49,155 nt of DNA from Acidimicrobiales bacterium (GTDB lineage Bacteria; Actinomycetota; Acidimicrobiia; Acidimicrobiales; MedAcidi-G1): positions 1 to 49,155 of the forward strand of contig JASLKK010000011.1 in assembly GCA_030747595.1 (NCBI GenBank). Reading direction: 5' to 3'. Below are positions 6,226-45,347 of this stretch, one piece after another. How positions within the stretch are numbered: the first letter of the stretch is position 1; every line of letters begins with the position of its first letter. A model generated the notes under the pieces. It did no database searches and had not been told where the DNA came from. It saw only the letters and a program-made list of their open reading frames with translations. The translations under genes and the position numbers were made by a program.

Positions 6226-7431
6226 ATGGGAATGCGCCTGCATGACACCGCTATAGGCGAGGTCGTCCCCTTCGAACCCGGCCCCAGGGTGACCATGTAC
6301 GTCTGTGGCATCACGCCGTACGACGCCACCCACCTCGGACACGCCTTCACCTACCTGACGTTCGATCTCGTCGTCCGTCGACTGGAAGACCTGGGTCACG
6401 AGGTCCGCATGGTTCGCAACGTCACCGACGTCGACGACTCAATTCTCCCCAAGGCCCGCGAGCTCGGCATCGACTATCTCGAGTTGGCCGCCCGGGAGAT
6501 GGACCACTTTCGCGCCGACCTGGCCGCGCTAAACCTGCGACCCGCCACGTCTGAACCCACGGCCACCGGTTCGATCGACGCCATGCTCGACCTCATCGGC
6601 CGCCTCGAAGCCAACGGCCACACCTACACCGTCGAGGGCACGACCTTCTTCGACGTCTCCACGTGGGACTCCTTCGGTTCGATGACCGGCTACGACGAAG
6701 CCACCATGCGGGCGTTCGCCGCCGAACGGGGCGGCAACCCCGACGACCCCCGCCTGCGCAACCCCCTGGATTTCGTACTCTGGCAGGCCAGCGCCGACGA
6801 CGAACCCTCGTGGGACTCGCCCTTCGGCCCGGGGCGACCGGGCTGGCACATCGAGTGCTCGGCCAGGGCCAGGGCCGACCTCGGTGAGACCATCGACCTC
6901 CACGGCGGAGGTAACGACCTGACCTTCCCCCACCACGAGTGCGAAGCCGCCCAGAGCGAAGCAGCCACCGGCCAACCGTTCGCCCGCCACTGGATGCACG
7001 TCGGGATGGTCGCCTACGAGGGCACGAAGATGTCAAAGTCGCTGGGCAACCTCGTCTTCGTACGCAACCTGAGACACATCCACGACCCAAGGGCCATCCG
7101 CCTAGCCCTCATGGCCCATCACTACCGGGCCGGCTTCGAATGGTTCGACTGCGACATCGACGACGCGATCATCCGCCTCGACCGCCTCGTCACCGCAGCC
7201 CGACGCCCCAAGGGTCCGAACCCGGCACCCACGCTGGCTGCCGTGCGGGCTGCACTCGACGACGACCTCGACGCGGCCACCGGCTGCGAAGCCCTAGACA
7301 TACTGGCCGGGGGGATCCTCTCGGGCACCGGCGACGACCCAACAGCCGCCGCCGGTCTGGCCACCGCAGCAGCCCTACTGGGCATCCACCTCGACGCCAC
7401 CCTTCCCGAATCCTGGTCACGAACTACGTGA
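6226..7431 (+). CDS. mshC: L-cysteine:GlcN-Ins ligase (mycothiol biosynthesis)
   Basis: 401 residues. MshC joins cysteine to 1D-myo-inositol 2-amino-2-deoxy-alpha-D-glucopyranoside, the third enzymatic step to mycothiol in actinobacteria. The signature YVCGITPYDATHLGHA (25-40) is MshC-like, where CysS has [14 protein letters not shown]. Other motifs are WHIECSARAR (Cys211), FPHHECEAAQSEA (His236/237) and [12 protein letters not shown] (268-279), with IRLALMAHHYRAGFEWFD near the end. It is shorter than CysS and lacks its C-terminal anticodon-binding extension. The N-terminus is shorter than in many homologues. A second ATG two codons in could also serve. It lies directly upstream of its paralogue cysS. 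Confidence 0.9.
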   Translation: MGMRLHDTAIGEVVPFEPGPRVTMYVCGITPYDATHLGHAFTYLTFDLVVRRLEDLGHEVRMVRNVTDVDDSILPKARELGIDYLELAAREMDHFRADLAALNLRPATSEPTATGSIDAMLDLIGRLEANGHTYTVEGTTFFDVSTWDSFGSMTGYDEATMRAFAAERGGNPDDPRLRNPLDFVLWQASADDEPSWDSPFGPGRPGWHIECSARARADLGETIDLHGGGNDLTFPHHECEAAQSEAATGQPFARHWMHVGMVAYEGTKMSKSLGNLVFVRNLRHIHDPRAIRLALMAHHYRAGFEWFDCDIDDAIIRLDRLVTAARRPKGPNPAPTLAAVRAALDDDLDAATGCEALDILAGGILSGTGDDPTAAAGLATAAALLGIHLDATLPESWSRTT

Positions 7432-7514
7432 TTCCCGGTCCACCCTCGGTAACCGAACCACCCCAGACCTGAGTCGGGCTGGTCATCACAGGCGGGCCGG
7501 TGGCGAGCGGACCG

Positions 7515-7520
7515 TATCCT
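7515..7520 (+). promoter_or_regulatory. Putative -10 box (TATCCT), leaderless cysS
   Basis: TATCCT ends 6 nt before the GTG at 7527. It supports that start rather than the in-frame GTG at 7500, which would lie upstream of this box. Confidence 0.45.
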
Positions 7521-7526
7521 GATCCG

Positions 7527-8912
7527 GTGCTGCGATTCACTGACAGCCTGACTGGCGAAAAAGTCGACTTCGTCCCACGCGAAGAGGGAAAGGCATCCGT
7601 CTACTGGTGCGGGCCCACCGTCTACGACGTCCCCCATCTCGGGCACGCCCGCAGCACGCTGGCCTTCGACCTGCTCGTCCGCTATCTGCGCTGGACGGGA
7701 CTGGACGTCACAGCAGTGTCCAACATCACCGACATCGACGACAAGATCATCAACCGGGCGGCCGATGAGGACTCGACCGAACCCGAGGTGGCCCGCCGCT
7801 ACGAGGTCACCTTCATTGAGCAGATGGATCGCCTCAACGTCGCCCACCCCGATCTACGACCCCGGGCCACCGAGTACGTCGACCGCATGGTCGAAGTGAT
7901 TGGAGAGTTGGTCGAACGGGAGATGGCCTACACCACCGATTCGGGCGTCTATTTCGACGTCGATCGACTCGGCGAGTACGGCGCTTTGGTGGGCCGCTCG
8001 GTCGACGACCTCCGCGAGGGTGCAGGCGCCCGGGTCGACGTCGACGACGACAAGGCCGACCCGCTGGACTTCGCCCTCTGGAAGGCCGCCAAGCCCGGCG
8101 AACCCACCTGGGACTCGCCGTGGGGTCCGGGTCGCCCCGGCTGGCACATCGAGTGCGTGGCCATGTCGCTGCACCTCCTGGGTGACAGTTTTGACATCCA
8201 CGGCGGCGGCGATGACCTCGTCTTCCCCCACCACGAGAATGAACGGGCCGAGGCACTGGGCTGTGGCCGGCCCTTCGCCCGCTACTGGGTCCACAACGGG
8301 ATGGTCCAGGTCGACGGCGAGAAGATGTCCAAGTCGCTGGGTAACTTCACCACGCTGGCCGGCCTGCTCGACACGTGGGACCCAAGGGCGTTACGTCTGC
8401 TGGTGCTCCAGACGCACTACCGACGGACCATGGAGATCGGATCGACCACACTCGACCAGTCGGCCGCCGCACTGGCCCGCCTCGACCAGTTCTCCGATCG
8501 GATGGCCAACGCCGACCTACCCGAGGTCGGACCCGACGCCGACGTAGTGGCTCGGTTCCGGGCCGCCATGGACGATGATCTCGGCTCACCACAGGCCCTG
8601 GCCGTGATCTTCGACGCCGTCCGTGACGCCAACCGGGCGTTGGACGCCGAGGACGACAATGCCGCTGCTGCGTTATCGACCGCCGCCCTGGAACTGGCTG
8701 GCGTTCTCGGCCTAGTGCTGGGGCGAGCCGCTCCTACCGATGCCAGTGGCAACTCCGACGACGACGCCGAGATCGACGCCCTGGTCGATCGCCGCCTTGA
8801 CGCCAAGGCGAAGAAGAACTTCGGAGAAGCCGATCGGATACGCGACGAGTTGACGGCCCGCGGCGTGGTGCTCGAGGACACGCCACGCGGCACCGCCTGG
8901 CGACGGGGCTGA
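7527..8912 (+). CDS. cysS: Cysteinyl-tRNA synthetase
   Basis: 461 residues. Class I aminoacyl-tRNA synthetase charging tRNA-Cys. [16 protein letters not shown] gives the zinc Cys28 and HIGH motif (37-40). Further motifs are [20 protein letters not shown] and the KMSKS loop KMSKSLGNF. The C-terminus carries the DALR/anticodon region with [20 protein letters not shown], ending [16 protein letters not shown] as expected. I chose GTG 7527 ([10 protein letters not shown] by translation) because CysS proteins begin this way and because of the -10 box just upstream; an extra nine residues from GTG 7500 are possible. It follows mshC by about 95 nt. Confidence 0.95.
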
Positions 8913-31956: not shown

Positions 31957-33477
31957 TTGACGGTTGATCGTGAAGTCTGGGTGCCCCGGGGGCTGGCCGC
32001 TGGGCTGCTGATCGCCGCGGCGGTCCCCCCGTGGGGATGGTGGCCGGCCGCCTTTATAGGGCTGGCCCTTCTGGATCGTCTGGTGGCCGACCGGCCGCTC
32101 TCATCGAGGTTCCGTCGGGGCCTGCTGGTAGGAGCAGCCTGGGCCTTCCCGTCAACGGTCTGGATGCTGGACCTGACCCCGGTCGGCTGGCTGGCCGCCG
32201 GCCTGCTTCACGCCGGATGGCTGGGCCTGGCCGCCGCCGCCGTCCCACCCGGGAGATGGCGACGCCTTGGCCTTGTCGGCACAGTGACCCTCGCCGAACT
32301 CGTTCGGTGGAGTGTGCCGTTCGGCGGTGCCCCGTTGGCCAGCATCGCGCTCGGACAGGCCGGTGGTCCGCTGGCACCGGTAGTCCGAATCGCCGGCCCG
32401 CTGCTGCTGGTGGCGCTCACAGTGGCCGTCGGCATGGGCCTGTCGGTGCTGTTTGACGGGCGTCGGGCCGACGGTGCCTCGGCAGCCACCGGGGCCGTGG
32501 TCGTCGCCGTGCTGGCCGTAGCAGTCGTCCTGTCCGCCGTGGCTCCGACCGGCCGACCGGTGGGCACCCTTGACGTGGCCGTTGTCCAGGGCGGCGGACC
32601 TCAGCGCACACGGGCCACCCCGACCGGTGCCGCCCGTGTGTTCGCCAACCAGTTGGAGGCCAACCAGCAGGTGGCGACACCGGTCGACCTGGTGCTTTGG
32701 CCCGAAAACGTGGTCAACCCGGTGCCGCTGCCTACCTCCGGATGGCGTCTTGAGGACCGCCTCTACGCTGACGACGCCATGACCGCCCTGACCGCCGAGG
32801 CGGCCCGCCTGGATGCCGTGCTGGTGCCTGGCTGGTTTCACCGGGCGGCCGACGATCCGACGGCCAACCTCAACTACCAGACGGCGATCGAGCCCGACGG
32901 CACGGTGGCCGACCGGTACGACAAGGTTCGCACGGTGCCGTTCGGTGAGTTCGTGCCCATGCGGGGGCTGGTCGAGTTGCTGGCCGCCGACATGCTTCCG
33001 TCGAGGGATCTCAGACCCGGGACGGGCCCAGCGGTGCTGGAGACTTCGATAGGGACCATGGGGGTGACCATCTCATGGGAGGTGTTCTTCGACCACCGGT
33101 CACGCGACGCGGTCCGCCACGGCGGCGAGGTCATCCTCAACCCGACCAACGGAGCCAGTTACTGGATGACCCACGTTCAGACTCAGCAAGTGGCCTCAAG
33201 TCGTCTACGGGCGCTAGAGAACGGACGGTGGGTGCTCCAGGCCGCACCCACCGGATTCAGCGCTGTCGTGGACCCGCAGGGCCGGGTGCTGCAGCGCACA
33301 GCAGTCAGCGAACAGGCGGTGCTCCATCACCGGATCGAACGCCGGACCGGCCTGACGTGGGCTACTAGGGCAGGGGCGTGGCCCATGGCCATCCTGGCCC
33401 TGGCACTTTGGTCAGGCAGCCTGGTCGGCAGCCGATTCTCGACAGATCTCGCTTCAGCCAGGCGATCGAGCAACTGA
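31957..33477 (+). CDS. lnt: Apolipoprotein N-acyltransferase (Lnt) homologue
   Basis: 506 residues. About six N-terminal membrane segments (VPRGLAAGLLIAAAVPPWGWW onward) precede a nitrilase domain. VLWPEN provides the catalytic Glu and YDKVRTVPFGEF the Lys and second Glu. VTISWEVFF replaces the usual C-Y-E motif: Ser stands where the catalytic Cys is expected. The later LNPTNGASYW and SRLRALENGRW segments are normal. In the family the enzyme N-acylates lipoproteins at the membrane. TTG 31957 starts 12 nt after the cyclase stop; GTG codons a few residues later are alternatives. The 3' end overlaps the converging methyltransferase by 24 nt. Confidence 0.8.
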   Translation: MTVDREVWVPRGLAAGLLIAAAVPPWGWWPAAFIGLALLDRLVADRPLSSRFRRGLLVGAAWAFPSTVWMLDLTPVGWLAAGLLHAGWLGLAAAAVPPGRWRRLGLVGTVTLAELVRWSVPFGGAPLASIALGQAGGPLAPVVRIAGPLLLVALTVAVGMGLSVLFDGRRADGASAATGAVVVAVLAVAVVLSAVAPTGRPVGTLDVAVVQGGGPQRTRATPTGAARVFANQLEANQQVATPVDLVLWPENVVNPVPLPTSGWRLEDRLYADDAMTALTAEAARLDAVLVPGWFHRAADDPTANLNYQTAIEPDGTVADRYDKVRTVPFGEFVPMRGLVELLAADMLPSRDLRPGTGPAVLETSIGTMGVTISWEVFFDHRSRDAVRHGGEVILNPTNGASYWMTHVQTQQVASSRLRALENGRWVLQAAPTGFSAVVDPQGRVLQRTAVSEQAVLHHRIERRTGLTWATRAGAWPMAILALALWSGSLVGSRFSTDLASARRSSN

Positions 33478-34810: not shown

Positions 34811-36106
34811 ATGTCCAATTTCCCCGGCGACGCCCCTACCGGCCATACAGACGAACCGCTTCGCATCGCCTACCTGGCATACCGCGGTAAGCCCCACTGT
34901 GGCGGCCAGGGCGTCTACACCCGACACCTGACGAAGGCCCTCGCCGACCTCGGGCACCACGTTGAGGTTTTGGCCGGCCCCCCCTACCCGGTGCTCGACG
35001 AGCGGGTCGGGCTGGTCACGCTGCCCAGCCTCGAATTGTTCAACGACTACTTCCCAATGCGCAAGGCACGAGTCTGGGAGATGAAGTCCAAGTGGGACGT
35101 CGCCGAGGCGATGTCGTTCAACACCGGCAACTTCTCCGAGCCCATGGCCTTCTCGATGCGAGCCTGGGAGCACCTTCGTGGCCGTCGCGGCGAGTTCGAC
35201 CTTGTGCACGACAACCAATGCCTGGGCTGGGGGCTGCTGCTCATGAAGCAGCGCGAACAGTTGCCGGTGCTCTCCACCATCCACCATCCGATCACCGTGG
35301 ACCGACGGATCGAAATCGAGCACGCCCGGACCCGCTGGGAGGAGTTCGGCAAGCGTCGCTGGTACGCCTTCACGAAGATGCAGACACAGGTGGCCAAGCG
35401 GATGACCCGGGTCATGACCGTCTCTGAATCGTCGGCCGGCGACATCGCTGCGGACCACAAGGTCGACCCGGACCGCATCAACGTGGTGCCCGTTGGCGTG
35501 GACCCCGACCTGTTCCTCCCGGTGCCCGGCGTGGATCGCGTGCCGGGTCGAATCGTGACCACGGCCAGCGCCGACGTCGCCATGAAGGGCCTCAAGTACC
35601 TGCTGGAAGCCATCGCCAAGCTGCGTACCGAACGCCACGTCGAGCTGGTCATCATCGGGAAGCCGAAGGAGGACAGTGCCTCGACGAACGTGTTCGAGGA
35701 CCTGGGGCTCACCGACTGCGTGTCCTACGTGCACGGAGTGCCCGACGAACGCATAGTGGAGCTGTACAGCGAGGCCGAGCTGGCCTGCGTGCCCTCGCTC
35801 TACGAAGGGTTCTCACTGCCGGCTATCGAAGCCATGTCGTGTGGCGTGCCGCTGGTGGCCACCACCGGCGGGGCCCTGCCCGAGGTCACCGGTACCCACG
35901 GCGATACCTGCTTCCAGGTGCCGCCCGGCGACAGCGATGCCCTGGCCGCCATGATCCGCACTGCGCTGGACGACCCAGACGCCCGCCAGCGGGTGGGCGC
36001 GGCGGGCCGCCAGCGCGTCATCGACCAGTGGAGCTGGCGACACACTGCGCTTCGCACCGTCGAGCAATACCGCTCCCTTCTGGCAGAGACCCAGCAGGCC
36101 GGCTAG
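34811..36106 (+). CDS. GT4-family glycosyltransferase
   Basis: 431 residues. GT-B fold: LRIAYLAYRGKPHCGGQGVYTRHL with the glycine-rich loop at about 17-40, and HHPITVDRRIEIEHARTRWEE in the middle. MTVSESSAGDIAADHKVDPDRINVVPVGVD is the inter-domain link. The donor-site E-x7-E is YEGFSLPAIEAMSCGVPLVAT, with GGALPEVTG. It is retaining, probably nucleotide-sugar using, and cytosolic. First gene of a plus-strand run with a methyltransferase and an alpha/alpha-barrel protein; the acceptor is unknown. Confidence 0.9.
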   Translation: MSNFPGDAPTGHTDEPLRIAYLAYRGKPHCGGQGVYTRHLTKALADLGHHVEVLAGPPYPVLDERVGLVTLPSLELFNDYFPMRKARVWEMKSKWDVAEAMSFNTGNFSEPMAFSMRAWEHLRGRRGEFDLVHDNQCLGWGLLLMKQREQLPVLSTIHHPITVDRRIEIEHARTRWEEFGKRRWYAFTKMQTQVAKRMTRVMTVSESSAGDIAADHKVDPDRINVVPVGVDPDLFLPVPGVDRVPGRIVTTASADVAMKGLKYLLEAIAKLRTERHVELVIIGKPKEDSASTNVFEDLGLTDCVSYVHGVPDERIVELYSEAELACVPSLYEGFSLPAIEAMSCGVPLVATTGGALPEVTGTHGDTCFQVPPGDSDALAAMIRTALDDPDARQRVGAAGRQRVIDQWSWRHTALRTVEQYRSLLAETQQAG

Positions 36107-36139
36107 GCGCCTGATCACCTGCCTTCCAGAACCTGACCC

Positions 36140-36940
36140 ATGCTGACCGCCGACTACGAACGACTGGGCCTCATAGCCGGGGAGACCGTGCTGGACCTGG
36201 GCTGCGGATTTGGCCGCCATGCCTACGAGGCCCTGCGGCGCGGCGCCCACGTGGTGGCGTGCGATCTCGGCTTCGACGAGCTGCGTCAGGTCCGCTCCAT
36301 CGGCGACGTGATGCGGGCCGACGGCGAACTGACCAACGACGTCGTGCTGGAGACGGCCAACGGCGACGCCATGATGCTTCCCTTCGCCGACGGCTCCTTC
36401 GATCGGATCATTGCCTCGGAGGTCATGGAACACATCGACGACGATGCTGGCGCCCTAGCCGAACTGACACGCGTGCTGCGACCGGGAGGCGTGCTGGCCG
36501 TGACCATTCCGGCCCGTCTGCCTGAACGGATCTGCTGGGCGATATCAGACGACTACCACGCCCCAAATCAGCCCGGTGGCCACGTACGGATCTACGGCAA
36601 CGGCCAGTTGCGGGCCCTCATGGCCGACGCTGGCCTCGAGCCCACCGACGAACACCGGGTCCACGCTCTGCACAGTCCCTACTGGTGGCTTCGATGCGCT
36701 GTGGGGCCCAACCGTCCCGTTGCCGATAGCCGTCTCGTGTCGCTCTATCACCGGTTCCTGACATGGGACATCGTGAAGGCGCCCCGCACCACAAGGCTCG
36801 CTGAACGCCTCTTGGCCCCGGTGCTGGGCAAGAGCCTCGTGATCTACGCCCGCCGGCCCGTCGCTGGCGCCCCCCCGATCCCCCATCGAGACGCATCAGA
36901 CGGACCCGGGACCAGGGAGGGCGAGCATGTCGCTGCCTGA
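36140..36940 (+). CDS. Class I SAM-dependent methyltransferase (glycan cluster)
   Basis: 266 residues. Motif I is VLDLGCGFGRHAYEALRRGAHVVACDLG (about 18-45). SFDRIIASEVMEHIDDDAGAL and LRPGGVLAVTIPARLPE follow, typical of Methyltransf_11-type enzymes on sugars or lipids. The C-terminus extends past the fold with basic helices. It overlaps the next gene by 14 nt, so the two are co-translated. Given the glycosyltransferase partner, it likely methylates a glycan intermediate, which is inference. Confidence 0.88.
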   Translation: MLTADYERLGLIAGETVLDLGCGFGRHAYEALRRGAHVVACDLGFDELRQVRSIGDVMRADGELTNDVVLETANGDAMMLPFADGSFDRIIASEVMEHIDDDAGALAELTRVLRPGGVLAVTIPARLPERICWAISDDYHAPNQPGGHVRIYGNGQLRALMADAGLEPTDEHRVHALHSPYWWLRCAVGPNRPVADSRLVSLYHRFLTWDIVKAPRTTRLAERLLAPVLGKSLVIYARRPVAGAPPIPHRDASDGPGTREGEHVAA

Positions 36941-38048
36941 GGTCCCGGGCGTCCTGAACGCCGAACAGCTGGTGGTCACAGCCGGCACCATTGCCGAGTG
37001 GCAGCTACCCGACGGGATGATCCCGTGGGTCCCCGGTGGGCATGCAGACCCTTGGAACCACACCGAGGCCGCCATGGCTCTCGCGGTAACCGGCCACCTT
37101 GATCAAGCCGAGGCCGCCTACCAGTGGTTGATTGCAACCCAGCACGAGAACGGCGCCTGGCACCAGTACTACGTGGCCGACGGCGTGGAGGACCCGAAGT
37201 TCGACGCCAACGTGATCGCCTACGTGGCCACTGGGGTGTGGCACCACTGGCTGTTGACCGGCGACCGAGGCTTTCTTGAGTCCATGTGGGAGGTCGTAGA
37301 GCGGGCCATCGACTTCGTGCTCGACCTGCAGACGCCACGTGGCGAGATCCTTTGGGCCCGCCACCCCGACGGCACGCCGTGGTCCTTCGCCTTGCTCACC
37401 GGATCGTCCAGCATCTGCCACAGCCTCCGATGCGCTGTGGCGGTGGCCGAAGAGACCGGTCACGAGCGTCCCGACTGGGAACTGTCCCTCGGCCATCTGG
37501 CCCACGTGGTGCGGACCCGGCCCGATGGTGCGTTCACCCCCAAGGACCGGTGGGCCATGGACTGGTACTACCCGGTACTGGGCGGGGCGATCAGCGGCAG
37601 CGACGCTCTGGCCCATCTAGATGCCCGGTGGGACGAATTCGTGATCATGAACCCTGCCGACGGTGCCATCGATGGAGTTGCCGACGGCGGATCACTCGGC
37701 GTCCGCTGCGTATCGGACAAGCACTGGGCGACAGCGGCTGAGACCAGCGAGTGCGCTATGGCCTACCTGCTGGCCGGTGACCGGGCCACGGCGACCGACC
37801 TGTTCCGGGCCACGCTTCCCATGCGTCAGGCCGACGGCCGGTACCTGACCGGAATCGTCTACCCAGACCTGGTGACCTTCCCGACCGAGGAATGCTCGAC
37901 ATACACGTCGGCTGCGGTCGTGTTGGCCGCTGACGCTCTGGGCGGATGCAGCCCTGCTTCGGGGGTCTTCGTCGACCACCGCTCTCTGCCCGACCTGATT
38001 GCCGTGGACGGGCTACCTCTGAGAACACCGGTCACCGAGAACGACTGA
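36927..38048 (+). CDS. Alpha/alpha-barrel protein (prenyltransferase/squalene-cyclase-like fold)
   Basis: 373 residues without a signal peptide. Repeats of paired helices are visible: ADPWNHTEAAMALAVTGH, AYQWLIATQHENGAWHQYY, ANVIAYVATGVWHHWLLTG and DFVLDLQTPRGEILWAR, with DGTPWSFALLTGSSSICHSLR. This resembles terpenoid-cyclase/prenyltransferase-like or GH15-type (alpha/alpha)6 toroids. An Asp-rich cyclase DxDD or QW repeat is not obvious, so a glycan hydrolase or lyase role is equally likely. A clear GGAGGGCG ribosome site precedes the ATG inside the methyltransferase gene. Function unknown. Confidence 0.7.
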   Translation: MSLPEVPGVLNAEQLVVTAGTIAEWQLPDGMIPWVPGGHADPWNHTEAAMALAVTGHLDQAEAAYQWLIATQHENGAWHQYYVADGVEDPKFDANVIAYVATGVWHHWLLTGDRGFLESMWEVVERAIDFVLDLQTPRGEILWARHPDGTPWSFALLTGSSSICHSLRCAVAVAEETGHERPDWELSLGHLAHVVRTRPDGAFTPKDRWAMDWYYPVLGGAISGSDALAHLDARWDEFVIMNPADGAIDGVADGGSLGVRCVSDKHWATAAETSECAMAYLLAGDRATATDLFRATLPMRQADGRYLTGIVYPDLVTFPTEECSTYTSAAVVLAADALGGCSPASGVFVDHRSLPDLIAVDGLPLRTPVTEND

Positions 38049-38093
38049 GTTCCCGTTGTCGACCCGCCTCCAGTATGTGGCGGCAGTCCCGTA

Positions 38094-38105
38094 CCCGCTA
38101 GCGGG
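38094..38105. terminator. Perfect palindrome CCCGCTAGCGGG between converging genes
   Basis: A 12-bp exact palindrome midway between the two convergent stops (38048 and 38132). It may act as a bidirectional terminator, although there is no loop and no T tract. Confidence 0.3.
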
Positions 38106-38131
38106 CGTGTTGCCCAGACCGGGAAGCGGCG

Positions 38132-38836
38132 TCAGATGCCGGAGCCGGTGCGCCGTAGGACTCGGAGCGACCCGACCGCGTTGACCTCGGTGAACGCCCC
38201 CGATCCGACTGCTCGGCTCCAGATCTCGAACGGCGGGCGACCGCCATCGGCCGGAGACGCGAAGACGTCGTGGATCAGAAGGAGGCCGCCGATAGTTAGA
38301 TGCGGTACCCAACCCTCGTAATCCCGATGGGCCGGCTCGGTGCCGTGCCCCCCGTCGATGAACAACAGGGCGAGCGGGGTCTGCCACACGGCAGCCACCG
38401 ATGGTGAGTCCCCCACGATGGCCACCACGGTGCCCTCCAGCCCGGCATCGTGGATGGTGCGCCGGAAGATCGGCAGGGTGTCCATCCGACCGATAGCCGG
38501 ATCGACGAGGTCGGGTTCATGGTGTTCCCAGTCGGCCTGGTTCTCTTCTGAACCCCGATGATGGTCCAGGGTGAACAGTTGGCGACCGGCGGCTTCAGCC
38601 GCGGCGCCGAGGTAGCAGGCGGACTTCCCGCAGTAGCTGCCGATCTCCAACCACGGACCGTCGATGCCCTGTTGTCCGACGCTGCTGGCATGGTCGAACA
38701 GGGCGAGTCCCTCGTCGGGCGGCATGAAGCCGCGGGCGGCTACCGCATGGGCCAGTACCTCGGTGGAACGGTCCGACCGGGCGTCGTCTGTCGAGAAGAT
38801 GCCTCCGGGAGAGGGGGCTTCAGGTACAGAATCCAC
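38132..38836 (-). CDS. Class I SAM-dependent methyltransferase (Methyltransf_24 type)
   Basis: 234 residues. GPWLEIGSYCGKSACYLGAAA is the SAM loop, LFTLDHHRGSEENQADWEHH follows it, and LLFIDGGHGTEPAHRDYEGW carries the acidic loop, as in the Methyltransf_24 group (cephalosporin-hydroxylase-like relatives). It begins 4 nt after the GtrA gene's stop region on the minus strand, so the two form a pair. It converges on the glycan cluster and may act on the same product. The substrate is unknown. Confidence 0.85.
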   Translation of the reverse strand: MDSVPEAPSPGGIFSTDDARSDRSTEVLAHAVAARGFMPPDEGLALFDHASSVGQQGIDGPWLEIGSYCGKSACYLGAAAEAAGRQLFTLDHHRGSEENQADWEHHEPDLVDPAIGRMDTLPIFRRTIHDAGLEGTVVAIVGDSPSVAAVWQTPLALLFIDGGHGTEPAHRDYEGWVPHLTIGGLLLIHDVFASPADGGRPPFEIWSRAVGSGAFTEVNAVGSLRVLRRTGSGI

Positions 38837-38840
38837 CGAT

Positions 38841-39320
38841 TCAGATTCCGTTGGAGTCTCCGCCGGCGATCTCTCCCGCCGGGGCTTCAGCCTTGTCCCC
38901 CCAGATCACGTGATGAAAGATCAGGTACCGCACGATCCACAGGGCTGCGAAAGCGCCGGCGTTAGCCAGCTGAACCGACAGGGCACCGCCGAAGATGGAA
39001 TCGACCACGCCGACCGCTGCGGTCGACAGGAACAACCCGGCAAACGAGAGCATCCAGAACGGGGCGATCTCGCCCACCGTGTGTCCTCCTTGCTCCTGTT
39101 CCCAGACGTAGTGGCGGCTCAACCAGTAGGCGGGCCAACTACTGATGGCCACCGCCGCCATGTTGGCGAAGGCGCCGGGCCAGCCGATGACGCTGTGAAA
39201 CAGGAACAGCAGGGACTGGCCGATGAACACGTTGATGAGTGACACCCGGGAGAACCGGATAAGCGTCGCTCCATGTTCCCGCCAGAGTCGCACTGGAAGA
39301 GAGAGGGGGTTGGACACCAC
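38841..39320 (-). CDS. GtrA-family membrane protein
   Basis: 159 residues with four hydrophobic segments (INVFIGQSLLFLFHSVIGW, FANMAAVAISSWPAYWLS, FWMLSFAGLFLSTAAVGVV, GAFAALWIVRYLIFHHVIW) and the family's RYLIFHHVIWG ending. GtrA proteins are thought to flip or hold lipid-linked sugars across the membrane. GTG start at 39320, 8 nt after a TAGGCT box. With the methyltransferase downstream it fits export of a methylated glycolipid precursor. Confidence 0.88.
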   Translation of the reverse strand: MVSNPLSLPVRLWREHGATLIRFSRVSLINVFIGQSLLFLFHSVIGWPGAFANMAAVAISSWPAYWLSRHYVWEQEQGGHTVGEIAPFWMLSFAGLFLSTAAVGVVDSIFGGALSVQLANAGAFAALWIVRYLIFHHVIWGDKAEAPAGEIAGGDSNGI

Positions 39321-39358: not shown

Positions 39359-40405
39359 CTAGTACCCAGCTGGTTCACCCGCCGCACTGTCACCCTGGAT
39401 TCGATGGCCGAGGAGACGGTCGGCCACCCACTCAGAGAGCGAGCGGGCTACGACACCCGGAGCACCGCTGACGGGAAGGGTCCCAGCCGTAGCGCTGCGG
39501 GACGCGTCCAACAGCAGCCGGTCTAGGTGTGATCGGACCTCGGCGCGCCACCGATTCTCTCGGCGGCCTGCCAGGGCACCGGCAGCGACCTGGGCTACCA
39601 GGTGGGCATCGGCGACATCCGCGAGTTCGTCCACGCCGACCCCGGTGGTGGCCACCGTCGAGATGATCCTCGGACGGGTGCCCGTACCCGTGCCGGCGCG
39701 CCTATGGCCGGTCAAGTCCGAGAGGTCGAGCATGAGCTCGAGGTCACGCCGTGTATCCGCGGCATCGGGCCGATCAGACTTGTTCACCGCAAACACGTCG
39801 GCCACCTCGAGTAGACCGGCCTTGTTGGCCTGTACCGCGTCACCCATGCCCGGGGTCACCACCACCAGCACGGTGTCGGCCGTGGAGGCCACGTCGACCT
39901 CTACCTGGCCGACGCCCACCGTCTCGACGATCACCGGGTCAAATCCGGCCAGCTCTAGCACCCGCACCATGCCGGGCACGGCGAGCGCTAGGCCTCCTGC
40001 ATGACCCCGGGTGGCCATGGATCGGATGAACACGCCCGAAGCCGTGGCCTCCGCCATGCGAACCCGGTCGCCAAGGATGGCACCCCCGGTAAGTGGGGAC
40101 GACGGATCGACGGCCAGTACGGCCGGCCGTCGCCCCCGTTCGACCAGTCGGGTTGTCCAGGCGGCGACCAGGGTGGACTTGCCGGCACCCGGTGGCCCGG
40201 TCAGACCGATCACGTGGGAACGATGCCCGTTGCCAGTCGCTCCGCCAGAAGCCCTTTCGCCGAGTTCCGACCAGGCCCGTTCGGCCACCTCGTCGGCCGG
40301 TGGCCCGCCCCGTTCGACGAGGGTCAGGAGCCGAGCGGTGGCCCGACGTTCGCCACCCCGGGCGGCGGCCACTAGTTCGGCAATGGACCTGGTCTCCCCG
40401 GGCAC
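39359..40405 (-). CDS. meaB: MeaB-family GTPase, mutase chaperone
   Basis: 348 residues. G3E P-loop GTPase that loads and protects B12 in acyl-CoA mutases. Walker A is IGLTGPPGAGKSTLVAAW (67-84). VLAVDPSSPLTGGAILGDRVRM is the family fingerprint, with FIRSMATRGHAGGLA, ETVGVGQVEVDVA and FAVNKSD. Full length. It is last in the mutase operon, starting 6 nt after the B12-subunit stop. Confidence 0.95.
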   Translation of the reverse strand: MPGETRSIAELVAAARGGERRATARLLTLVERGGPPADEVAERAWSELGERASGGATGNGHRSHVIGLTGPPGAGKSTLVAAWTTRLVERGRRPAVLAVDPSSPLTGGAILGDRVRMAEATASGVFIRSMATRGHAGGLALAVPGMVRVLELAGFDPVIVETVGVGQVEVDVASTADTVLVVVTPGMGDAVQANKAGLLEVADVFAVNKSDRPDAADTRRDLELMLDLSDLTGHRRAGTGTGTRPRIISTVATTGVGVDELADVADAHLVAQVAAGALAGRRENRWRAEVRSHLDRLLLDASRSATAGTLPVSGAPGVVARSLSEWVADRLLGHRIQGDSAAGEPAGY

Positions 40406-40411
40406 CGCCGA

Positions 40412-40813
40412 TCAGCTCCGGGTGTCGGCGGCCGCCCGGATGCAGGCCACGACCTCCTCGGCCGAAGCCCCCGGACCGAGCACCCCGGCCACGCCGGCGG
40501 CGGCCATGGCGGGTCGGTCTTCGTCGGGGACGATGCCACCGATCACCACCGGCACGTCCAGTCCGGCGTCCGCCAGCGCCTGGACCATGCGGGGGGCCAG
40601 CGTCAGGTGTCCGGCGTTGAGCATCGAAATGCCGACCACGTCGACGTCCTCCTGCTCGACCGCGTCGATGATGGTGTCTGTGGTCTGGCGTAGGCCGAGG
40701 TACACGACCTCCACGCCGCCGTCACGCAACATCCGGGCCACCACCTTGAGGCCCCGGTCGTGGCCATCCAACCCCAACTTGGCCAAAACGACCCGCAACG
40801 GCGTCTCGTTCAT
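40412..40813 (-). CDS. B12-binding subunit of acyl-CoA mutase
   Basis: 133 residues. Free-standing cobalamin-binding domain with the base-off motif D16-x-H18-x-x-G21 in KLGLDGHDRGLKVVARMLRDGG, then EVVYLGLRQT, VGISMLNAGH and VVIGGIVPDEDRPAM. It is the small subunit of the mutase encoded just upstream; the stop of that gene overlaps the ATG (TGATG). A GTG one codon upstream is an alternative start. Confidence 0.93.
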   Translation of the reverse strand: MNETPLRVVLAKLGLDGHDRGLKVVARMLRDGGVEVVYLGLRQTTDTIIDAVEQEDVDVVGISMLNAGHLTLAPRMVQALADAGLDVPVVIGGIVPDEDRPAMAAAGVAGVLGPGASAEEVVACIRAAADTRS

Positions 40814-42444
40814 CACACCACCGCCCGTTCTACGTATGTCCCGAACTCGGCCTCGAGCGTGTCGACGACCTCGCCGACGGTGGCCCGGGCCCGGACGGCA
40901 TCGACCAGAGCAGGCATGAGGTTGACGGTGGGCTGGGCGGCGTTGGCGGCCACCTGGGCCAGCGTCGAGGCCACCACTGCGTCATCGCGCTCCTGTCTGA
41001 CGGTAGCCAGGCGTTTGCATTGGAGGTCCTCTGTGTCCTGACTGATGCGCAGCAAGCGGCGGCGCTCCGGATCATCGCCCTCGGTGAACGCGTTGACGCC
41101 CACCACGATCCGCTCTCCGGCGTTCACCTCACGCTCGTAGCGGTAGGCGGCATCGGCGATCTCGCCGACAAACCAGCCGCTGTCGATCCCGGCGTACACA
41201 CCCTCGAGCAGCGAGCCATCCCCTAGACCTTCGAGGTGGGCGAAGACCTCCTCGGCCCGGCGTTCCATCTCGTCGGTCATCCACTCCACGTAAGCCGAAC
41301 CGCCCAACGGGTCGGCCGTGTTGACCACACCGGTTTCATGGGCGATGACCTGCTGGGTACGGAGGGCGACACGAACCGCTTCCTCACTCGGAAGCGCCAG
41401 GGCCTCATCGTAGGAATCGGTATGGAGGCTCTGGGTGCCGCCCAGGACGCCGGCTAAAGCCTGGATGGCCACCCGGGCGATGTTCACCTCGGGCTGATGA
41501 GCAGTAAGCGACACGCCGGCGGTCTGCGTGTGGAACCGTAGCTTCAGGCTTCGTTCGTCATTTGCGCCGTAACGATCACGCATCCAGCGGGCCCAGAGGC
41601 GCCGAGCCGCCCGGAACTTACCCACCTCCTCGAAGAAGTCGTTGTGGCTGTTGAAGAAGAAGCTCAGCCGCGGGGCGAAATCGTCGACGTCCATGCCGGC
41701 GGCCACTGCCGCCTCCACATAGGCGAACCCGTTGGCCAACGTGAAGGCCAACTCCTGGGCGGCCGTCGAACCGGCCTCACGGATGTGATAGCCGGAGATT
41801 GACACCGGGTTCCAACGGGGCATTTCGGCGGCAGTGAATGCCATGACATCGGTGACCAGTCGAACCGACGGGCGTGGCGGGAAGATGTACTCCTTCTGGG
41901 CCTGGTACTCCTTGAGGATGTCGTTCTGGAGCGTGCCGCTCAGGTGACCCCGGGTGACACCACCCTCCTCGGCGACGACGACGTACATGGCAAGGAGGAT
42001 GGGCGCCGGCCCGTTGATGGTCATCGACGTGGACACAGTTCCCAGGTCGATGCCGGCGTACAGGTCGACCATGTCCTCGACGGTGTCGACGGCCACCCCG
42101 GCACGGCCAACCTCGCCAAGTGCCCAGTCGTGGTCCGAGTCGCGGCCCATGAGCGTGGGCATGTCGAACGCCGTGGACAGGCCGGTGCCCCCGGCGGCCA
42201 GTAGTTCGCGAAAGCGGGCGTTGGTGTCGGTAGCCGTGCCGAAGCCAGCGAACATCCGCATGGTCCACAGGCGGGACCGGTACATGTCGGCGTGCACCCC
42301 CCGGGTGTACGGAAACTCGCCGGGTAACGGTCCGTCGCCGTACACCCGGTCGACGGGAATCCCCGACAGGGTGCGATACCGGTCATCCGGTGACGATGCT
42401 TCCGAGGTGCGACCTCTGGCCCTACCGGTGTTCTTATCAGTCAT
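40813..42444 (-). CDS. B12-dependent acyl-CoA mutase, large (catalytic) subunit
   Basis: 543 residues, about the length of split mutase large subunits. [95 protein letters not shown] and [17 protein letters not shown] are family blocks. It carries out the radical carbon-skeleton rearrangement with the separate B12 protein. The [13 protein letters not shown] block differs from classical methylmalonyl-CoA mutase (FDLxTHRGYDSD) and is nearer to the 2-hydroxyisobutyryl/isobutyryl-CoA group. The substrate is therefore open. Probably leaderless, starting at ATG 42444 behind TACCCT. Confidence 0.9.
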
Positions 42445-43397: not shown

Positions 43398-44180
43398 ATG
43401 TCTGACACCACCTCAACCACACCCACGGCCCGGCCAGCAGATATCGCCGCCCACCCGAAGCTAAACATCGTCTACCGGACCGATCCTGACCGGATCGCAC
43501 CACTGCTGCCACCGGGGATTGAACCCACCGGCAGCCCGAACGTGTACGTCGGGATCTACTGCGTACCCATCCGCAACGAACCCGAGTACGGCGTGTCCAC
43601 CAAGGTCGACGCCGTGTGGAACGGAATCGAAGGCCAGTACTCGTTCGGGATCGGTATCGACCAGGAAGCGGCGATCTTCGTCAGCTCCGAGACCAACGGC
43701 CAGCCCAAGTTCCCGTGCACTACCCGCTACTTCCGCCTCGGTGACCGCATCGAGGCCACCTGTACCCATCAGGGGTACACGTTCCTGGAGTTCCGGGGCA
43801 CGGTCACCGGCGAAGCGGACACCGACGGGTCCGATGTCGTGCACGACGAGTGGTGGACGAAGTACTCCCGGGCCATCGGGGGCGCCGAGGGCCAGTGGGA
43901 TTTCCCCCCGCATGTGGTGCACGTCCACCAGGTCAGCGAACCGGTCCACGTCGAGACCCTCGACGGCGAGCTGGTGCTGCGGGACAGCCCGTGGGATCCA
44001 TACACCGAACTCCTGCCCATGGAAGACCTGGTTGATGCCCGACTGGTGACGTCCCGACACAAGGAACGCTCGATCACCAACGGCGGGCCCCTAGATCCAG
44101 TGACCTTCTGGCCGTACGCCGACACCATTGGCGGCTCGCGTTGGCCCGGCGAACGTGGCGGCCCGAAGTTGGCCTGGTAG
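43398..44180 (+). CDS. Acetoacetate decarboxylase family protein
   Basis: 260 residues. The segment NGQPKFPCTTRYFRLGD places a Lys (104) where the Schiff-base Lys of ADC lies, and YVGIYCVPIRNEPEYG with KVDAVWNGIEGQYSFGI resembles the ADC fold. A classical YPKK is not present, so the activity may be a different one (enol-lactone or aldol chemistry occurs in this fold). It ends 36 nt before a CrtC/AttH-like gene that has its own ribosome site; the two form a pair. The substrate is unknown. Confidence 0.75.
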   Translation: MSDTTSTTPTARPADIAAHPKLNIVYRTDPDRIAPLLPPGIEPTGSPNVYVGIYCVPIRNEPEYGVSTKVDAVWNGIEGQYSFGIGIDQEAAIFVSSETNGQPKFPCTTRYFRLGDRIEATCTHQGYTFLEFRGTVTGEADTDGSDVVHDEWWTKYSRAIGGAEGQWDFPPHVVHVHQVSEPVHVETLDGELVLRDSPWDPYTELLPMEDLVDARLVTSRHKERSITNGGPLDPVTFWPYADTIGGSRWPGERGGPKLAW

Positions 44181-44216
44181 CAACCGCATCTAGATCCGAG
44201 AAACAGGAGCACACCC

Positions 44217-45347
44217 GTGCTGAGCAGGTTTGACGACTATCCGATCCACCAGACGCCCGATCCGATCGCCATGCCGGCATCCAGCGACAAGGACGTCTAC
44301 GAGCGCTACTGGTTCAACGGCTACTCCACGACCGGCGATATGTACTTCGGGATCGGCACCGCCCTGTACCCCCACCTGGGGATCCGAGACTGCGGCATCA
44401 GCATCGCCGTGGACGGCGTACAGCACGCATTCCACGCCTCGTGTCGAATCGAGGGCGACCCGGCCGACCAGATCGTTGGACCGTTCCGCCTGGATGTCCT
44501 CGAGGCCATGCGTTCGTGCCGGGTGGTGCTCGAATCCAACGAGACTGACTTCGCGTGTGACCTGACCTTCGAAGGCCGGACCGGCAACGTGGAGGAACCC
44601 CGGCACCACTGGGGTGGCGACATCCGCCGCACCATGGACACCACCCGGTTCACCCAAATGGGTCGCTGGGCGGGTTGGATCGAGTTCGACGGCCGTCGCA
44701 TTGATTTCGATCCCGACACCACCCGGGGCACCAAGGACCGCTCCTGGGGCATACGGCCCCTGGCCGGCGGTGATCAGCGAGGCGCCCCGGTCCCGCCGGC
44801 CCGATCCAGCCTCTTCTTCCTGTGGGCACCGCTGAACTTCGACGACCTGTGCGTGCACTACCAACTCTTCGAGGATTCGCTAGGGCGGCCGCTGTCCAGC
44901 GTGGGCGCACTGCTGCCCACCTACGACACGCTGGCCGACCTGCCAGGCATCGAGGACCCGGGGGCCCGCCACATGCGGGCCCATGAGCACCGCCTGCAGT
45001 TCGACGCTGGCAGTCGACTGGCCCATACCGCCGACCTCTCGTTCACTGCGGTAGACGACGGATCACGCCACGAGTTCCATTTGGAACGGATCTTCACCTT
45101 CCGGATGAAGGGCATCGGCTACCACCACCCCGAATGGGGCCACGGCGCATGGAAGGGCGACCTGGCCATGGCTTCGGAGAAGTGGGACATGGACGCCGTT
45201 GACGACCAGGCATTCGAGAACCAGCACTGCCAGCACCTGATGCGGGCCGCTATGGGCGACCGGGTCGGCATCGGCGTGCTCGAGCAACTGTGCGTCGGGC
45301 CGTACAAGCCCTACGGATTCGACGGGTTCGTCGGCCGTTCCGGCTGA
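44217..45347 (+). CDS. CrtC/AttH-like lipocalin-type protein
   Basis: 376 residues. The two-lobed beta-rich layout (WFNGYSTTGDMYFGIGTALYPH, FEGRTGNVEEPRH, RWAGWIEFDGRRIDF, TTRGTKDRSWGIRPLA) resembles the tocopherol-cyclase / hydroxyneurosporene-synthase / AttH superfamily. These bind or hydrate hydrophobic isoprenoid-like molecules. GTG start with AGGAG 7 nt upstream, unlike the leaderless genes nearby. No signal peptide. Its role with the ADC-family neighbour is unknown. Confidence 0.65.
   Translation: MLSRFDDYPIHQTPDPIAMPASSDKDVYERYWFNGYSTTGDMYFGIGTALYPHLGIRDCGISIAVDGVQHAFHASCRIEGDPADQIVGPFRLDVLEAMRSCRVVLESNETDFACDLTFEGRTGNVEEPRHHWGGDIRRTMDTTRFTQMGRWAGWIEFDGRRIDFDPDTTRGTKDRSWGIRPLAGGDQRGAPVPPARSSLFFLWAPLNFDDLCVHYQLFEDSLGRPLSSVGALLPTYDTLADLPGIEDPGARHMRAHEHRLQFDAGSRLAHTADLSFTAVDDGSRHEFHLERIFTFRMKGIGYHHPEWGHGAWKGDLAMASEKWDMDAVDDQAFENQHCQHLMRAAMGDRVGIGVLEQLCVGPYKPYGFDGFVGRSG

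Follow-up and report, generated by a model that had tools for sequence, protein, structure and literature searches.

Which product is made by the five adjoining genes at positions 34811 to 39320 of contig JASLKK010000011.1 (assembly GCA_030747595.1), from an Acidimicrobiales bacterium? The contig was analysed over 49,155 nucleotides, and this whole stretch is referred to below as the window. A first-pass annotation, made from the letters alone, had set out the five open reading frames (ORFs), their strands and their overlapping, abutting and convergent layout, with coordinates that agree with ours; it regarded them as one unit for a methylated glycan, a view borne out by the conserved gene order described below. 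It also held the cluster to be uncharacterised and not assignable to a known pathway, and here it was mistaken: three of the proteins match characterised enzymes of the methylmannose polysaccharide (MMP) pathway, and the locus is very probably an MMP cluster. In nontuberculous mycobacteria, such a cluster comprises four genes, namely, meT1, mmpH, pmeT3 and manT (PMC9883506). The four-gene kit is already known; here it occurs in an uncultured bacterium, together with an extra membrane-protein gene common to many relatives. The assignment is based on three PDB matches, the mapping of residues, a model of the barrel protein, a counterpart for pMeT3, a gene order kept across the phylum and a phylogenetic tree.

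The family GT4 glycosyltransferase matches PDB entry 7qsg with E 2e-120, the next PDB sequence following at 6.5e-24, and the two proteins are 48.8% identical across 400 residues. The PDB's own label for the entry is 'D-inositol 3-phosphate glycosyltransferase'; 7QSG is the structure of ManT according to PMC9883506. Nine of the ten mapped residues are identical (the exception is L291, which is V in the window protein), and H142, K240, E313 and E321 of the reference correspond to H158, K259, E332 and E340, respectively. Replacement of Lys240, Glu313 or Glu321 by Ala abolishes all or most of the activity of ManT (PMC9883506). The window protein is, therefore, predicted to be ManT, an alpha-(1->4)-mannosyltransferase that would lengthen methylmannose chains.

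The best match of the barrel protein is PDB entry 7qsj, the methylmannose polysaccharide hydrolase MmpH (E 2.8e-100; the next match is at E 0.065), to which it is 51.4% identical across 329 residues. An AlphaFold2 model of the protein (pLDDT 93.2) superposes on 345 residues of 7qsj with a Z-score of 56.1 and a root-mean-square deviation of 1.4; for the entry ranked second, the Z-score is 34.7. The earlier call of an alpha/alpha-barrel is thereby upheld. No Pfam model matches above cut-off, and NCBIfam offers at best a partial hit to 'oligosaccharide amylase', with 64.9 bits versus a cut-off of 820.7. Residues D47, E262 and E265 of MmpH are retained as D41, E272 and E275; in the mycobacterial enzyme, Glu262 is the base and Asp47 the putative acid (PMC9883506). 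From both sequence and model, we infer that the barrel protein is MmpH, an endo-alpha-(1->4)-mannosidase that would cut mature MMP into primers.

By Pfam, the two methyltransferases fall in different families (class I and Methyltransf_24, respectively). For the one encoded on the minus strand, the sole PDB match up to E 1 is to the entries 6g7d, 6g80 and 6h40 (E 1e-66; 54.7% identity to 6g7d across 201 residues), which carry the PDB label 'methyltransferase domain protein' and which we take to be MeT1; the window protein would accordingly be MeT1, a 1-O-methyltransferase capping the reducing end. The other lies between manT and mmpH and is a putative pMeT3, the presumed 3-O-methyltransferase of the chain. 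It agrees in position and start residue with, and is 52% identical to, the equivalent protein of the mycobacterium-like locus L162, and the ManT of the L162 genome matches 7qsg at E 2.5e-232; identity to seven rows from other classes is 47–58% (in this comparison, L167, L168, L178, L075, L130 and a second L054 range were left out, and L063 was shortened). In the published cluster, too, the function given for pMeT3 is putative (PMC9883506).

In Mycobacterium hassiacum, whose enzymes have been studied, new MMP chains arise from old ones by 'partially conservative replication' (PMC9883506). If the same scheme operates here, MmpH would cut mature MMP internally to give short methylmannosides, ManT would add alpha-(1->4)-mannose from GDP-mannose onto these methylmannoside primers, pMeT3 would methylate O3 of the new mannoses and MeT1 would methylate O1 of the free reducing ends. 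The product is likely to be an intracellular 3-O-methylmannose polymer and not a surface glycolipid: MMP is described as intracellular (PMC9883506), and the GtrA-family protein is the sole membrane hint among the five genes, so that the surface glycolipid proposed earlier finds no support beyond GtrA. It is by analogy that we infer that the organism makes the polymer at all, and chain length, the O3 position, intracellular location, acyl-CoA binding and a role for GtrA are carried over or surmised in the same way. The features concerned are collected in Table 1.

Table 1. The five-gene unit and the adjoining mutase run, with positions in the window and the basis of each assignment
Feature	Positions	Strand	Basis
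ManT (GT4; predicted)	34811-36106	+	PDB 7qsg sequence match; Pfam GT4
pMeT3, putative 3-O-methyltransferase	36140-36940	+	Pfam class I methyltransferase; position and L162 counterpart
MmpH, (alpha/alpha)6-barrel endo-alpha-(1->4)-mannosidase (predicted)	36927-38048	+	PDB 7qsj match; AlphaFold2 model
MeT1, 1-O-methyltransferase (predicted)	38132-38836	-	6g7d match; PF13578 Methyltransf_24
GtrA-family membrane protein	38841-39320	-	PF04138
meaB	39359-40405	-	NCBIfam
B12-binding subunit	40412-40816	-	NCBIfam
Acyl-CoA mutase large subunit	40813-42444	-	NCBIfam

The genes are closely packed: manT and pMeT3 are 33 bp apart, pMeT3 and mmpH overlap by 14 bp, and gtrA is separated from meT1 by 4 bp. 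The meT1 gene is convergent on mmpH, with 83 bp between the two ORFs; this intergenic stretch gives no sign of RNA structure, as 26 of 200 shuffles fold equally well (z -1.22).

The layout was compared across relatives, all loci being located through their MmpH, in four sets: a named set, which holds the loci closest to the window (the best 80 of at least 595 relatives), other genomes of the same order, other orders of the class and other classes. The named contigs are mostly labelled Acidimicrobiia, Acidimicrobiales or actinobacterium; two labelled 'Bifidobacterium breve', one 'Acidobacteria' and one 'Thermoanaerobacterales' were taken as mis-binned or mislabelled. The nearest of the named loci, L052 (isolate UBA12569), is 99% identical. 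Counts use domain coordinates from hidden Markov models, with loci lacking room at an end kept outside each denominator, and the sets were not summed because the same DNA underlies both members of the pairs L032/L065 and L034/L081, one in the named set and one outside it. ManT, MeT3 and MmpH follow one another in this order on a single strand in 71 of 72 named, 35 of 36 same-order, 24 of 24 other-order and 19 of 19 other-class loci. MeT1 lies within the fetched stretch in 69/80, 31/36, 23/25 and 16/19, respectively, and, where it is found nearby, its gene is downstream of and convergent on mmpH in 69/69, 29/31, 23/23 and 14/16. Ten genomes outside the named set have no meT1 nearby: genome-wide, eight of them give a strong match, in some cases just beyond the stretch, one gives a weak match (29%) and one, which is 85% complete, gives none. 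The gene set is more than a chance association; the scattering in relatives envisaged by the first-pass annotation was not seen, and the ManT–MeT3–MmpH order is kept. In two loci, the gap between mmpH and meT1 holds extra genes that differ between them (L101, 9051-13571; L105, 9526-11327) and that, by eye, look unrelated and variable. Both loci seem to have a superoxide dismutase-like gene there, and L101 a gene for a cytosine DNA methyltransferase as well; the gap in these two has the look of a site of insertion.

A search of 296 genomes of the class with the window MmpH gave matches at E 1e-10 or better in 144. These comprise 94 of the 96 genomes sampled from the window's order, a count that takes in the window's own family and genome, and 50 of the 200 in the rest of the class. 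The total of 96 is made up of the 94 matching genomes and two non-matching ones, the first among the kinship-ordered genomes listed; one of these two has a MeT1 match, and the other has neither protein. Across the phylum, an MmpH profile matches 65 of 396 genomes. In a three-protein tree of 86 rows, the window's order falls to one side of a branch (support 89), and the other orders of the class and the other classes need two changes each; this is the pattern that mainly vertical descent would give (the tree was built quickly and not bootstrapped; ten rows have an unusual composition, and the midpoint root serves only the drawing). Spread by mobile elements was considered and rejected: a plasmid collection yielded one record, in which the 'plasmid' is 11.85 Mb long, and six pattern matches in viral contigs include no relative.

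The fifth gene encodes a GtrA-family protein (PF04138; 40.1 bits versus a cut-off of 26.1), for which a sequence comparison with the PDB gives nothing up to E 1; two further GtrA matches lie elsewhere in the genome. Its inclusion in the set stands for part of the window's order and fails elsewhere: gtrA is within 1.5 kb upstream of meT1 on the same strand in 64 of 65 named loci and in 12 of 30 same-order loci, spread over families, and before meT1 in none of the loci with room in other orders (0/22) or other classes (0/14), that is, in 0 of 36 testable clusters outside the order. One locus with gtrA is L121, from the cultured strain Aquihabitans sp. G128. As it is confined to part of the order, GtrA is a lineage-specific partner and not part of the core.

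The minus-strand gtrA–meT1 pair continues upstream, a point that the earlier annotation did not note, into a tightly packed run of genes for MeaB, a B12-binding subunit and a mutase (NCBIfam TIGR00641, TIGR00640 and TIGR00750, all above cut-off). The spacing makes it possible that this run, which reads into gtrA–meT1, is co-transcribed with them. Divergent from it is a gene for a MarR-family regulator (PF01047; 42506-43012, plus strand), which could control the mutase–meaB–gtrA–meT1 run. The best PDB match of the mutase is 2-hydroxyisobutyryl-CoA mutase (4r3u), and all 35 mutases read have Phe and Gln at two positions, residues that presumably mark isobutyryl-type mutases; a literature search on them found nothing. 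A mutase of this kind is encoded no more than 4 kb upstream of meT1 in 15 of 21 other-order loci (nine of the 15 at 12–30 bp from meT1, by domain coordinates), 19 of 58 named, 1 of 27 same-order and 0 of 13 other-class loci. That two mutase–meT1 arrangements occur in separate orders suggests a functional tie, which we treat as a lead; most same-order genomes, 26 of 27 having no mutase nearby, count against a fixed link. Both gtrA and the acyl-CoA mutase are candidate partners. On the other side of the cluster, at 31957-33477 on the plus strand, is a gene for a carbon–nitrogen hydrolase with an N-terminal domain of the apolipoprotein N-acyltransferase (Lnt) type (PF00795, PF20154). Such a gene is found again, at most 4.5 kb upstream of manT, in 47 of 52 named loci, 14 of 33 same-order loci and none of those in other orders (0/20) or other classes (0/17).

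Several observations weigh against the assignment to MMP. The window MmpH differs from the reference at three mapped positions, D50, W315 and F102 being N44, Y326 and V96, respectively, and the changes are shared by relatives. In a residue alignment of 181 rows (MmpH frames below 200 bits were dropped, as were rows whose middle parts were identical; a genome may still recur), position 50 is Asn in all 161 rows of the Acidimicrobiia set (63 same-order, 25 other-order and 73 named) and also in 6 of 20 rows from other classes; position 315 carries Tyr throughout the 136 same-order and named rows, but Trp throughout the 25 other-order rows; and position 102 is mostly Val, Cys or Thr within the class. 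Moreover, GtrA has no place in the MMP pathway as published, and a search of the open-access literature (subscription papers lay outside its scope) yielded no measurement of MMP for this class and no paper that pairs methylmannose with Acidimicrobi-. The model TIGR01479, used for GDP-mannose supply, is silent in the window's own genome, but it is silent in the Corynebacterium glutamicum control too. We give a small but appreciable chance to a variant nested within the MMP assignment. In it, the same four enzymes would make a related polymer that differs in cleavage size, in its methyl pattern or in being decorated with acyl groups, and GtrA would hold or move this polymer at the membrane in lipid-linked or acylated form. 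The fixed MmpH substitutions, the pairing of gtrA with meT1, limited to part of the order, the two arrangements of meT1 near a B12-dependent acyl-CoA mutase and the recurrence of the Lnt-type hydrolase all point this way, as does the mention in PMC9883506 of an acetylated MMP in Streptomyces griseus. Against it, 18 of the 30 same-order genomes with room do not have gtrA before meT1, hence the core exists without a nearby gtrA; Asp47 and Glu262 of MmpH are retained in 161 of 161 rows of the Acidimicrobiia set; and the Lnt-like gene lies outside the core. Lnt proteins are, moreover, known for acting on lipoproteins. As for the substitution at position 50, the Asp47Ala and Asp50Ala variants of MmpH both lose most activity, and either residue may be the catalytic acid (PMC9883506): a natural Asn would favour Asp47 as the acid if the enzyme is active, or else it signals altered chemistry.

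Two further readings depart from MMP altogether. An undescribed pathway for a surface glycolipid or polysaccharide would suit the presence of a GtrA-family membrane protein in the unit, but all four soluble enzymes have MMP counterparts and, by Pfam, the five genes include no exporter or lipid-linked initiating transferase; we consider it highly improbable. The first-pass annotation had itself suggested methylglucose lipopolysaccharide (MGLP) as a characterised pathway that the genes might match. A match to a characterised pathway was indeed found, but the pathway is MMP, the sister of the one suggested. MGLP, too, is a polymethylated polysaccharide of actinobacteria whose synthesis relies on glycosyl- and methyltransferases; here, however, three proteins match MMP enzymes specifically, and the GpgS model NF010496 reaches at best 72.8 bits versus a cut-off of 262 in a genome that is 95.87% complete (the glycosyl- and methyltransferases of MGLP were outside the comparison), so that a role in MGLP is scarcely credible. 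The MMP assignment is, therefore, the one we retain.

What the polymer would do in these bacteria is a separate matter. One idea is that MMP exists mainly to serve the type I fatty acid synthase (FAS-I). In 44 MmpH-bearing genomes, picked for spread among the MmpH matches and not at random, with full clusters checked in only part, the FAS-I domain (PF08354) was detected in 10: among the 25 genomes from the class it was present in one, and among the 19 from elsewhere in nine. It was not detected in the other 34, and the window genome shows none. Eight of the nine genomes outside the class belong to family f78, the home of the mycobacterium-like L162 genome. PF08354 was positive in the C. glutamicum control, and PF17951 was discarded, as it gave no match even in controls. 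The sole case among the 25 class members is a FAS-I-like domain in a 3082-codon open frame of genome G190, a member of the window's order (contig C1, 1678176-1679186). Given that no FAS-I was detected in 34 of the 44, MMP is unlikely to serve FAS-I alone; taken with the presence of MmpH in 94 of 96 sampled genomes of the order, this speaks against FAS-I as the main reason for the polymer. A more speculative picture, which we judge improbable as a whole, is that MMP in the Acidimicrobiia is a near-universal, old, FAS-I-independent trait of the order, membrane-associated through GtrA or acylated, with its capping enzyme co-expressed with a B12-dependent isobutyryl-type mutase; if true, the polymer would serve the metabolism of branched or short acyl-CoAs in bacteria that lack FAS-I. 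The order-wide occurrence of MmpH, the gtrA link, the MmpH substitutions, the mutase neighbour and the scarcity of FAS-I were not found in the open-access literature. The survey thus indicates other bacteria in which the role of the polymer could be tested, and a natural series of MmpH active sites is now at hand across the relatives.

Elsewhere in the window, a gene for a protein resembling the mycothiol ligase MshC (TIGR03447; 440.6 bits versus a cut-off of 485.1) stands in tandem with one for cysteinyl-tRNA synthetase (TIGR00435, above cut-off) at 6226-8912 on the plus strand, the two products being adjoining paralogs. At 43398-45347, also on the plus strand, a gene for an acetoacetate decarboxylase-like protein (PF06314) adjoins one for an Rv3169-family protein (NF053593, 361.2 bits).

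Set beside known systems, the locus shares with MGLP the making of a polymethylated polysaccharide and differs from it in that the GpgS model stays below cut-off in the window genome. Unlike the mycobacterial MMP cluster, it has gtrA before meT1 and an acyl-CoA mutase run nearby; unlike M. hassiacum MmpH, its enzyme has Asn, Tyr and Val in place of Asp50, Trp315 and Phe102; and, unlike the mycobacterial system, it belongs to a genome in which the FAS-I domain was not detected. The loci L165–L167 of family f73 share the ManT–MeT3–MmpH core with the window; they have no GtrA or mutase match, and two of the three have meT1 on the edge of the locus or past it. As with the acetylated MMP of S. griseus (PMC9883506), the polymer here would be a non-mycobacterial MMP. 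The features in common with the mycobacterial cluster are as follows: the three predicted enzymes are 49–55% identical to the crystallized ManT, MmpH and MeT1, with Asp47 and Glu262 of MmpH and Lys240, Glu313 and Glu321 of ManT conserved; meT1 and mmpH converge, an arrangement also seen in L161 and L162, both mycobacterium-like; and all four genes of the M. hassiacum and M. smegmatis MMP cluster (PMC9883506) have their counterparts in the window.

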